A stretch of 64,000 bases of DNA, from NCBI GenBank assembly GCA_002840975.1, contig PHDN01000010.1, positions 1 through 64,000 on the forward strand, given 5' to 3'. This stretch comes from Bacteroidetes bacterium HGW-Bacteroidetes-16 (GTDB taxonomy: Bacteria; Bacteroidota; Bacteroidia; Bacteroidales; F082). The notes beneath the pieces were generated by a model that saw only the letters and a list, made by a program, of their open reading frames with translations, was not told the origin of the DNA and searched no databases. Both the position numbers and the translations under genes were made by a program. This document shows positions 4,618 to 8,083 of the stretch, piece by piece (the first letter of the stretch is position 1; every line of letters begins with the position of its first letter).

Positions 4618-5541
4618 TTACAGCTCAACACGTTGTGTAACTGAAGCATTTTTCTGAACCATCTGGATAAAGTACGTTCCGGGTTGCTTGGCACTCAGAT
4701 CGATGGTTAGTTGATATACATCACCAACCATCTCAGGTTTTCCGGTGTAAACCTTGTCGCCAAAGTAATTATAAACAGTCACTTTTGTGGAACGATTGTC
4801 ATCTTTTGGCATAAACCGAAGGGTGATCACACCACCACGGTTGTCAATGTCCAGGGTAGTGAGCACCAGCTGATCGGGTTGACATTTAATTCCGGCATCA
4901 CGCAATTCTTCCTGTGAAGCCACCCCGTCATCGTCAAATCCGCCATGAAAAAAGTACCTGTTTCCCGGATGTTCAGGATGCATGGGACGTGGTGGTTTTG
5001 GAGGCCGTGGAGGCATACTAACCCATTTCATTCTCTCTCCATTCATCAACTCCATTTCTCTTTCCACATCTTCACGCTGACGCATGGCTTCCTCCACCTG
5101 TCTTTCGATGTCTTCGTTTAAGCCTTCCATATTTTCTTTATCCAGGTTGAATTCAAATTCCATGTTTCGGACGTCTTTATCCACCCAATGCCTTACTTTA
5201 TGGTTAAATGCCGGTGAAGATATCATCGAAATATCATCATCTCCCGTAAATACCATCACCTTATAGGGACGTCCGGTTGAATCGGAGCCATTGGCAGACA
5301 GCTCAATAGAAATCGTTTTGCTTTGGGGCGAATCAACATCCGCCACCTTATCGATCAACAACTTGATATCTTGCTCCATGTCACCCTTTGAGGTGAAAAC
5401 GGTATCAAAAGTGGTCGTTTTTCCATCCACCACCTTGACCAACTTAACTTTTACCTCCTTTTTTTCATCCACCTGGGCATAAATGAATGCCGGGACAACA
5501 AGCAGGAAAATCATCAAATAAAATAGGTTTACTTTTTTCAT
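4618..5541 (-). CDS. Secreted proline-rich protein with T9SS-type C-terminus
   Basis: A 307-residue exported protein: signal peptide MKKVNLFYLMIFLLVVPAFIYAQ, then a domain with many Asp and Lys, and an acidic helical stretch around residues 135-165. A proline-rich linker follows (PPRPPKPPRP, near 178). The last 70 or so residues look like a type A T9SS sorting domain: a beta-sandwich with VYNYFGDKVY and PGTYFIQM, ending in QRVEL, although the usual PNP start is missing. It should be sent to the cell surface or medium. It faces away from the kinase/regulator pair, and the shared 149-bp region holds a probable regulator array. The function is unknown. Confidence 0.85.
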   Translation of the reverse strand: MKKVNLFYLMIFLLVVPAFIYAQVDEKKEVKVKLVKVVDGKTTTFDTVFTSKGDMEQDIKLLIDKVADVDSPQSKTISIELSANGSDSTGRPYKVMVFTGDDDISMISSPAFNHKVRHWVDKDVRNMEFEFNLDKENMEGLNEDIERQVEEAMRQREDVEREMELMNGERMKWVSMPPRPPKPPRPMHPEHPGNRYFFHGGFDDDGVASQEELRDAGIKCQPDQLVLTTLDIDNRGGVITLRFMPKDDNRSTKVTVYNYFGDKVYTGKPEMVGDVYQLTIDLSAKQPGTYFIQMVQKNASVTQRVEL

Positions 5542-5572
5542 TTTTTAAAGTTTTAAATACTTCACAAAACTA

Positions 5573-5630
5573 GGTTACGCCCTTTTCGATAAAGGTTAAC
5601 AGGGGTTAAAAAAGGTTAACATCAGGTTAA
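5573..5630. promoter_or_regulatory. Phased GGTTAA direct-repeat array (probable response-regulator operator)
   Basis: GGTTAA occurs at 5594, 5604, 5614 and 5625 and a near copy, GGTTAC, at 5573. The spacings are 21, 10, 10 and 11 bases, which puts all copies on one face of the helix. Tandem direct repeats one helical turn apart are the usual site shape for OmpR/PhoB-type regulators. The array lies between a secreted-protein gene and the operon encoding such a regulator (7376-8083), so autoregulation and control of the divergent gene are the simplest reading. The binding itself is inferred. Confidence 0.65.
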
Positions 5631-5658: not shown

Positions 5659-5666
5659 TAGCTTTG
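5659..5666 (+). promoter_or_regulatory. Bacteroidota -7 box for the kinase/regulator operon
   Basis: TAGCTTTG matches the Bacteroidota -7 consensus TAnnTTTG exactly and lies 24 bases before the TTG start at 5691. There is no clear TTTG -33 element at the usual distance. The GGTTAA box at 5625-5630 lies near -43 to -48 instead, as expected for an activator-dependent promoter. Confidence 0.6.
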
Positions 5667-5690: not shown

Positions 5691-7379
5691 TTGAAAAAAC
5701 GTTTTAACCTGATTGTCCTTTTTATGTCGGTCAGCCTGGCAGGAATTATTTTCACCCAGGCATTGTGGATCAGGCATGCCATGAAAATGGAAGCCTCCAG
5801 ATTTGAGAAATCGGCCCATGAGGCCATGCTGGAAAGCATCGACAACTGGGGCCGATTCGACAGGTTTTCGTTTATTAAAGATAAGATGAACCTGCCTCCT
5901 CCTCCACCTGCAAGGCCGGTACGTCCAGCCAGAACTTTTTACAGTGTTACTCCCGGAGCCAACAGTCGTGTGTCGGTGGAAGTGGATACGGTTGTAAGTC
6001 AGCATGGTTCAACAAGCCATGTCATCAGCATCACTTCCAAAAACAAAGTGAGCACACAGGCAACTGTCAATATGGATTCTATTCATAACAACTTTCAATT
6101 CGATTATGATCTGGAATGGGTATCTGACTCTGAACCAGATGTTGTAATGGTTACAAATAAGGATCCGCAATTTTTTGAACTGCAGAGAATACACGACAGT
6201 ATTCGGCATAAAATGGATGAACACAGTCTCAGGGCGGAAGAAGAAAAAGCCAGGGTGATAGAGGAAAAGCTGGAGCTATTCAACAAAAACATGGAAGAAT
6301 GGGTGGTGGAATACGGCTTCGACCCGAATAAAATGCTGAAATATTTTCCTGTTTCCAACCTGGACACGCTGCTTCGAAATGCCCTGTTTTCAAGAGGCAT
6401 CGACCTGCCTTTTTACTATCAGGTTGTGCAGGAGACAGGCGATTCTGTTCATGTAATTTCCTCCACCAAGGACGCACCGGCAGAGTTGAAAACTGCCTTC
6501 AAAGTCAATCTGTTTCCCGACGATTTCTTCCGCAAAAACATGTACCTGCTGTTAAGTTTTCCCTCCAAAAACAGCTACATCTTCAAATCGCTCACCTTAC
6601 TTATCAGCGGAAGTGTAGTCTTTACCCTCATTATCCTCACCACCTTCTGGTTTACTGTTTTTTATATGCTGAAGCAGAAAAAAATGTCGCAGATAAAAAC
6701 CGATTTCATCAACAACATGACTCATGAGTTTAAAACGCCCATTGCCACCATCGCTCTGGCTGCGGATGCCCTTTCTTCACCCAAGGTCTTCGGGCAAACC
6801 GATCCCACCAACTATTATCTGGGCATCATCCGGCAGGAAAATAAACGCATGAACAGTCAGGTAGAAAAAGTACTTCAAATGGCTTTGATTGAAAGAGGAA
6901 ATATCCACATCGAACCACAACCCATGAATGCACACGAAGCCATTGAGCATACCATTGAAGTGCTGCAACTTTCGGCACAGCAAAAAAACGGGCGCATCAT
7001 TTCTGTCCTGCGTGCTTCCTGTGATCAGCTCCTGGCCGATGAAGTACATTTTGCCAACTTAATGAACAATTTGCTTGATAATGCCATCAAATACACCGAA
7101 AAACCACCTGAGATTGTGGTTGAAACCTACAATCAGCAAAACTCACTGATTATCAGGGTAGCCGATAATGGTGTGGGCATGACCAAAGAAGTACAGCAGC
7201 ACATTTTCGATCAGTTTTACCGCCGGCCAAGCGGCAACATACACAATGTAAAAGGCTTCGGACTTGGATTGAGTTATGTAAAAGCCATTGTGACCGCTCA
7301 TGGCGGAACCATCCGGGTACACAGCGAACCCGGAAATGGCAGTATCTTTACCCTGACTTTTAATTGCTACAAATCATGA
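5691..7379 (+). CDS. Sensor histidine kinase with large periplasmic domain
   Basis: A 562-residue membrane kinase. An N-terminal membrane helix (about 7-26) and a second one near 305-327 enclose a periplasmic sensor region of about 275 residues. That region carries a proline-rich stretch (PPPPPARPVRP) and a charged helical segment around 180-210. The catalytic core has His345 in THEFKTPIATI, the N-box NNLLDNAIKYT, and G-boxes DNGVGM and GFGLGLSYVKA. The start must be the TTG at 5691: an in-frame TAG directly precedes it, and the residues that follow, MKKRFN, look like a normal export start. The gene overlaps the response regulator by four bases (ATGA). Confidence 0.93.
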   Translation: MKKRFNLIVLFMSVSLAGIIFTQALWIRHAMKMEASRFEKSAHEAMLESIDNWGRFDRFSFIKDKMNLPPPPPARPVRPARTFYSVTPGANSRVSVEVDTVVSQHGSTSHVISITSKNKVSTQATVNMDSIHNNFQFDYDLEWVSDSEPDVVMVTNKDPQFFELQRIHDSIRHKMDEHSLRAEEEKARVIEEKLELFNKNMEEWVVEYGFDPNKMLKYFPVSNLDTLLRNALFSRGIDLPFYYQVVQETGDSVHVISSTKDAPAELKTAFKVNLFPDDFFRKNMYLLLSFPSKNSYIFKSLTLLISGSVVFTLIILTTFWFTVFYMLKQKKMSQIKTDFINNMTHEFKTPIATIALAADALSSPKVFGQTDPTNYYLGIIRQENKRMNSQVEKVLQMALIERGNIHIEPQPMNAHEAIEHTIEVLQLSAQQKNGRIISVLRASCDQLLADEVHFANLMNNLLDNAIKYTEKPPEIVVETYNQQNSLIIRVADNGVGMTKEVQQHIFDQFYRRPSGNIHNVKGFGLGLSYVKAIVTAHGGTIRVHSEPGNGSIFTLTFNCYKS

Positions 7380-8083
7380 CCAACGAACCTTACCTGCTCC
7401 TTGTAGAAGATGATGTTAATTTTGGTTCTGTGCTCAAGAGCTACCTCGAACTAAATGATTTTAAGGTAGATTGGGTTTCGGATGGAAAGGATGCCAACGA
7501 AAAATTCATCCGGGGGAATTACCAGTTGATATTGCTTGATGTGATGCTTCCCAACCTGGATGGGTTCTCCATCGCAAAACAAATTAAGGCATCGGGCCGC
7601 AACACCCCCTTTATTTTTATTACCGCCAAAACCCTGCGCGAAGATGTGGTTGCCGGCTATAAAACCGGGGCCGACGATTACATCACCAAACCATTCGATT
7701 CGGAGATCCTGTTATACAAAATCAAAGCCGTGCTCAGCAGGCATCAAAATAATCCCGAAACAGGCTCCCTAACAGGAATCCTGACCCTTGGCCATTTTTT
7801 ATTTAACTACCGGTCGAGGAAACTCACCAATCAACAGAACAACCACAGCACCTCGCTCACACCCAAGGAAAGCGAACTGCTTTATTTGTTGATCATGCAA
7901 CAAGGAGAACTGCTTTCCAAGGTAGTGGCGCTTAACAAAATCTGGGGCAACGCCAATTATTTCACCACCCGCAGCATGGATGTGTACATCACCAAGCTCC
8001 GAAAACACTTATCTTCAGATACTTCCATCCAGATCATCACCATTCATAGAGATGGTTACCGGCTGGTAACCGAAGGCAAATGA
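7376..8083 (+). CDS. OmpR-family response regulator
   Basis: A 235-residue two-domain regulator. The receiver domain (about 1-120) has the acidic pair EDD (11-13), phospho-acceptor Asp55 in LLDVMLP, and the conserved Lys in TKPFDSEIL. The C-terminal winged helix (about 140-233) shows TPKESELLYLL and the recognition-helix region SMDVYITKLRKHL, followed by the wing motif IHRDGYRLV. The ATG at 7376 overlaps the kinase stop codon as ATGA; an upstream TTG is a less likely start. It should be phosphorylated by the kinase encoded just upstream, and is a good candidate to bind the GGTTAA array. Confidence 0.93.
   Translation: MTNEPYLLLVEDDVNFGSVLKSYLELNDFKVDWVSDGKDANEKFIRGNYQLILLDVMLPNLDGFSIAKQIKASGRNTPFIFITAKTLREDVVAGYKTGADDYITKPFDSEILLYKIKAVLSRHQNNPETGSLTGILTLGHFLFNYRSRKLTNQQNNHSTSLTPKESELLYLLIMQQGELLSKVVALNKIWGNANYFTTRSMDVYITKLRKHLSSDTSIQIITIHRDGYRLVTEGK

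Follow-up and report, generated by a model that had tools for sequence, protein, structure and literature searches.

Four exact GGTTAA hexamers stand at intervals of 10, 10 and 11 bp in the 149-bp gap between two divergent genes, one coding for a secreted protein and the other opening a kinase/regulator operon. With a probability of roughly 80%, the adjacent regulator uses these four boxes as its operator and would activate both its own operon and the secreted-protein gene from one array. Since the arrangement is found again across Bacteroidota, control of this operon and of the neighbouring gene very probably runs through binding of the regulator to the array. Four points can be read directly from the genomes compared: the presence of the array, its conservation, the fixed spacing to a -7 box on either side and the link to one kinase family. 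Coordinates refer to the window, i.e. the whole stretch of 64,000 nucleotides that was analysed.

A phased GGTTAA array between two divergent genes

The features of the locus are as follows.

4618 to 5541, minus strand: gene of a secreted protein of 307 aa, with a signal peptide, an N-terminal beta hairpin and a C-terminal type IX-like sorting domain (weak Por_Secre_tail)
5565 to 5572, minus strand: -7 element TAGTTTTG (CAAAACTA on the plus strand, where the pattern is CAAAnnTA) of the secreted-protein gene, 22 nt before the first GTTAA; no -33 element
5573 to 5578, plus strand: GGTTAC, judged to lie outside the operator
5594 to 5599, plus strand: putative operator half-site 1, GGTTAA, exact; GTTAA core kept in all orthologues
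5604 to 5609, plus strand: putative operator half-site 2, GGTTAA, 10 bp on; invariant in the orthologue alignment
5614 to 5619, plus strand: putative operator half-site 3, GGTTAA, 10 bp on; invariant in the orthologue alignment
5625 to 5630, plus strand: putative operator half-site 4, GGTTAA, 11 bp on; invariant in the orthologue alignment
5659 to 5666, plus strand: -7 element TAGCTTTG (TAnnTTTG) of the kinase/regulator operon, 28 nt after half-site 4; no -33 element
5691 to 7379, plus strand: histidine kinase gene, 562 aa, TTG start; Pfam domains HisKA and HATPase_c; orthologues of 94 to 45% identity carry the array
7376 to 8083, plus strand: gene of an OmpR/PhoB-type response regulator, 235 aa, the presumed ligand of the array; Pfam domains Response_reg and Trans_reg_C

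The GGTTAA copies that the preliminary description had placed at 5594, 5604, 5614 and 5625 are exact in the sequence. The GGTTAC at 5573, which it had added as a further member, is present as well, but its status as a box does not stand. It is common to the two nearest relatives (L002 and L003) only, and the remaining seven of the aligned orthologues have other bases in its place; it was therefore rejected as a fifth box.

Over the whole window, GGTTAA occurs 49 times, compared to 42.9 expected, and is thus not enriched. In 300 resampled windows, however, the largest GGTTAA cluster comprised two copies in 45 bp, compared to the four observed, and GGTTAA is the sole hexamer in the 64 kb with at least three copies in a 10/11-bp register. 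The clustering of GGTTAA is not due to chance. Half-sites 3 and 4 form the sequence GTTAA-N6-GTTAA, and the remaining intervals are N5. The locus shares three properties with the tandem operators of the OmpR/PhoB family: the four GGTTAA half-sites are oriented head to tail at 10–11 bp (10, 10, 11), the array is helically phased to the promoter, and a regulator of this family is encoded beside the site (7376–8083). The latter had been proposed from the reading frames and was confirmed by the Pfam assignments.

The TTG start of the kinase gene at 5691 is apparent and is likewise found in the same-genus relatives L002–L004; most other orthologues begin with ATG. In the AlphaFold model of the kinase the sensor region is poorly modelled, and no signal is therefore proposed for this enzyme.

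Conservation of the array and its distances to two -7 boxes

Orthologues of the kinase were sought in 61 genomes. The closest ones, which have 94 to 45% sequence identity and belong to several genera, all possess the array between the kinase gene and a divergent gene for a secreted protein. In their alignment the boxes are nearly invariant and the flanks drift. A family-wide search for three-box arrays identified 20 of 173 genomes from 6 of 16 genera, and in all 20 the array is located at this locus. The preliminary description had named a lack of the repeats in orthologous regions as the observation that would speak against an operator; both the closest orthologues and all 20 array-bearing genomes of the family keep them at this locus.

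The same description had noted a -7 box without a -33 element just downstream of the array, which corresponds to TAGCTTTG at 5659–5666. It had missed a second, divergent -7 box (CAAAACTA, 5565–5572), which is assigned to the secreted-protein gene. The distance from this divergent box to the first GTTAA is 22 nt in 20/20 array-bearing genomes of the family, and the forward box follows the last GTTAA after 27–28 nt in 19/20, the contig of the remaining genome being too short. Among 59 aligned promoters, the columns between the array and the -7 box contain no -33 signal and little information, with a modest A/T preference just before the -7 box. A larger set of 86 arrays was compiled from the upstream regions of relatives and from whole-genome relatives. 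In this set, the distance from the last box to TAnnTTTG is 26–29 nt in 61 arrays, with outliers near 17, 39 and 48 nt, and CAAAnnTA occurs 21–23 nt before the first box in 41 arrays, with outliers near 12, 33 and 44 nt. On both sides, the outliers are about one helical turn away from the main distance.

Beyond the family, the comparison covered 80 named relatives of the kinase, which gave 78 usable upstream regions. For pairs at 10/11 bp, GTTAA ranks first of all 5-mers and is found in 51 of these regions across Bacteroidota; the shuffle control gave a mean of 0.2 and a maximum of 2, and control spacings gave 0–2. The commonest four-box spacing among the relatives is 11-10-11. Where a regulator gene is located next door, 43 of 53 regions contain an array, compared to 8 of 24 where it is not (Fisher p = 7e-5, calculated from raw counts and ignoring relatedness). 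The expectation that arrays of this type precede related kinase operons is thus borne out with respect to the GTTAA core, the spacing and the fixed -7 distance across the phylum.

The composite pattern GTTAA-N5/6-GTTAA-N27/28-TAnnTTTG was detected in 80 of 149 genomes of the class, compared to 9 for the reversed control. At 18 of the 29 composite-pattern loci that were read, a window-like kinase starts within 12 nt; the others precede genes for DUF1573 proteins, an HtrA-like protein and a few enzymes, all named by eye from the sequence. In the host genome, a wider pattern (N26–29) has three matches, namely this locus and one each on the contigs C10 and C18, all before kinases belonging to the family of the window kinase. 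A PhoBR-like operon of the host has no array. Upstream of a gene for a MoxR-type ATPase lies a two-box module in reversed orientation, CAAAGTTA-22-GTTAA-N5-GTTAA (L246, 1501–1545; G000:C24:16676–16720), and a reversed half-module counterpart is found before the same gene in 5/5 genomes of the genus.

Several minor observations were made at these loci. At the 18 kinase loci, which are among the composite-pattern matches L250–L278, the start codon follows the -7 box after 1–12 nt, and the corresponding mRNAs would have little or no leader; the distance in the window is 24 nt. At L261, L272, L274, L275, L277 and L278 the genes that follow the forward module code for small, exported, DUF1573-like proteins with a CGCTVP motif, and near position 1501 of L258 the module precedes a gene for an HtrA/DegP-like protease, a typical envelope-stress target (all by eye). 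At L069–L072, which are of Flavobacteriales type, GGTTAA copies at 11-11 lie between a divergent kinase gene and a gene for an outer-membrane beta-barrel; in three of these four loci no -7 box is found at the usual distance to the kinase. Long GGTTAA-like runs with a 9–10 bp spacing at several loci of genome G579 (L075, L079, L082, L083) look more like a separate, dispersed tandem repeat than an operator and were excluded as evidence.

The presumed ligand and its likely mode of action

The best NCBIfam model for the regulator is RprY, with a score of 239.8 bits that is below the cut-off of 370; no Sae model is among its best 25 matches. In a quick tree calculated with the recognition helix masked, the regulator belongs to a clade of its own (SH-aLRT 100), apart from the RprY-like clade (99). 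RprXY of Bacteroides and Porphyromonas is the closest named regulator family, of which the window regulator is a member neither by score nor by clade. GTTAA arrays are present in relatives outside the Bacteroides clade. In contrast, the classical rprXY upstream regions of the Bacteroides-like clade contain an array in only 3 of 20 cases, one of them partial, and 17 are without, which ruled these promoters out as an experimental anchor; the module is therefore not universal. At these classical promoters (L199–L218) the array has mostly been lost and the recognition-helix region is unchanged. A consensus site for RprY is given in neither of two RprY papers.

The recognition-helix region YFTTRSMDV of the window regulator is kept in its orthologues. 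Clades with YFT-RSMDV tend toward a purine before GTTAA, and those with YFN toward a T. By counts, the correlation between the helix residue (N or T) and the preceding base is strong; it corresponds to 4–5 changes on the tree and 3–4 independent pairs, which are too few for proof, and it may be taken as a hint.

The general type of operator is known from other bacteria, and the earlier statement that no GGTTAA operator of this kind had been published has to be withdrawn. SaeR from Staphylococcus binds GTTAAN6GTTAA, and the autoinduced sae P1 promoter contains two such sites (PMC5083920). In Salmonella, the consensus of the PhoP box is (T/G)GTTTA-N5-(T/G)GTTTA, and some natural half-sites read GGTTAA (PMC3335776). 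The sae P1 promoter of S. aureus resembles the window in its GTTAA direct repeat of about 11 bp and in the presence of four half-sites at the promoter of the regulator's own operon; half-sites 3 and 4 match the SaeR binding sequence. SaeR is also of the OmpR/PhoB type, and its DNA-binding domain is, by less than 1 bit, the closest solved one to that of the window regulator by sequence. However, SaeR belongs to a different phylum and regulator family; with RprY as its best model and a host from the Bacteroidota, the window regulator is not a SaeR orthologue. Moreover, the window array mixes spacings of 10 and 11 bp, is combined with the -7-only promoters of Bacteroidota, and serves two divergent genes at once. 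PhoP boxes are likewise direct repeats at 11 bp whose activating effect depends on helical phasing: directly oriented boxes are functional when 12, 23 or 33 nt separate them from the -10 box, and for reversed boxes the permitted distances are 27, 37 and 48 nt (PMC3335776). Steps of integral turns and an orientation-dependent offset of the distance are also found for window-type arrays. In contrast, the PhoP consensus half-site is GGTTTA, which the window half-sites do not match, GGTTAA being a variant in some natural boxes only; there are usually one or two boxes per promoter, the promoters are of the -10/-35 type, and the two orientations are used by separate promoters.

No operator of this kind from Bacteroidota was found described in the open-access text searched, and the same is true for DNA sites of the RprY-group regulators, which are widespread in the phylum. 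Within this scope, three aspects appear undescribed: the system in Bacteroidota, the rigid layout with two promoters, and the secreted partner that recurs with it.

Most likely, the phosphorylated regulator, a relative of RprY, occupies the array as a pair of dimers that are arranged head to tail along the same helix face. In this position it would contact or recruit RNA polymerase at two divergent promoters that lack a -33 element. One of these would serve the kinase/regulator operon through the TAnnTTTG box 28 nt downstream of the array, the other the gene for the secreted type IX-tail protein through the -7 box 22 nt upstream on the opposite strand. The outcome would be a positive autoregulation that is coupled to the production of a surface partner. 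The identity of the bound protein, the dimer stoichiometry, the dependence on phosphorylation and activation rather than repression are the parts of this scheme that we infer.

Activation is not certain, because RprY from P. gingivalis, which binds its own promoter in gel shifts, looks like a repressor, as its authors suggest (PMC3646045). The array, which covers the expected -33 position of the divergent gene, might correspondingly be a repressor operator at which the regulator blocks one or both promoters. This is unlikely, given that both promoters lack a -33 element and are helically phased to the array in the manner of activator-dependent promoters, and that SaeR and PhoP arrays of such type activate their own promoters (PMC5083920, PMC3335776). 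The bound protein, in turn, could be a paralogue, because the host has three such regulators, which share the GTTAA core. The site would then be bound mainly by the regulator of C10 or C18, or by several of them, and be cross-regulatory instead of autoregulatory. The recognition-helix regions of the paralogous regulators are indeed alike, and both paralogous operons carry arrays that agree in the GTTAA core and in the spacing. Yet each of the three host operons has an array of its own. The base before GTTAA is G in 4/4 boxes of the window, which matches the YFTT helix of the clade, whereas both paralogues have TGTTAA. As arrays moreover accompany adjacent regulator genes, binding mainly by a paralogue is quite improbable.

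A tandem repeat of chance or selfish origin with no role in regulation has next to no probability. Short direct repeats in an AT-rich gap and the long arrays of genome G579 could be taken for such an origin, but it is refuted by the conservation tests. More than two copies were never seen in resampled windows, a single locus is conserved over six genera with fixed distances to two promoters, and related operons across the phylum carry the array. The preferred reading thus remains an operator of the adjacent regulator, which would activate transcription in both directions.

The secreted partner and a possible wider module

The family of the secreted protein is conserved opposite related kinases. 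A profile constructed from the orthologues matched 25 of 58 divergent ORFs, compared to 1 of 766 other ORFs (E <= 0.001), and this single match (L098) is itself divergent from its kinase. From the third iteration on, the HMM also recruits type IX tails that are unrelated to the family, and only the first rounds were therefore used. Common to the members are a signal peptide and, at the N-terminus, a pattern like V-K-V-x-x-x-x-DGK-x-x-x-x-DTTF; most of those scanned contain a C-terminal type IX sorting domain, and some contain PDZ domains. For the protein of the window, the match to Por_Secre_tail is weak (25.9 bits, cut-off 27), and the AlphaFold model has a mean pLDDT of 53.6, with the C-terminal tail alone being confident.

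In E. coli, the two-component operon CpxRA and the divergent gene cpxP, which codes for an exported protein, are both under a tandem direct-repeat site of the regulator. The window resembles this arrangement in that a member of a conserved exported family is encoded divergently from the kinase operon at the same site (4618–5541, minus strand). In contrast to CpxP, the partner is an unrelated type IX-tail protein: Pfam shows a weak type IX tail only and no homology to CpxP or Spy.

A more far-reaching, tentative proposal, which is rather less likely to be correct than not, is that CAAAnnTA-22-[GTTAA repeats]-27/28-TAnnTTTG constitutes a phylum-wide module. In much of Bacteroidota, a regulator of the RprY superfamily might use it to drive the operon that encodes it together with its kinase and, in genomes that have one, the gene of a divergent surface protein exerting kinase feedback, which would form an envelope-stress circuit reaching HtrA, DUF1573 and the MoxR operon. 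Since the half-site, the spacing rule and the two-promoter geometry are readable from sequence, regulons may be predicted in many uncultured genomes, and the same rules render both the signal and the function of the secreted partner accessible to experiment. Furthermore, one array with fixed, unequal distances to two opposite promoters without a -33 element provides a natural test of the contact between OmpR-type regulators and the RNA polymerase of Bacteroidota.

Opposite a paralogous kinase with a TGTTAA array, L183 (2351–2641) encodes a Cys/Lys-rich exported protein of 97 aa that has no Pfam match.
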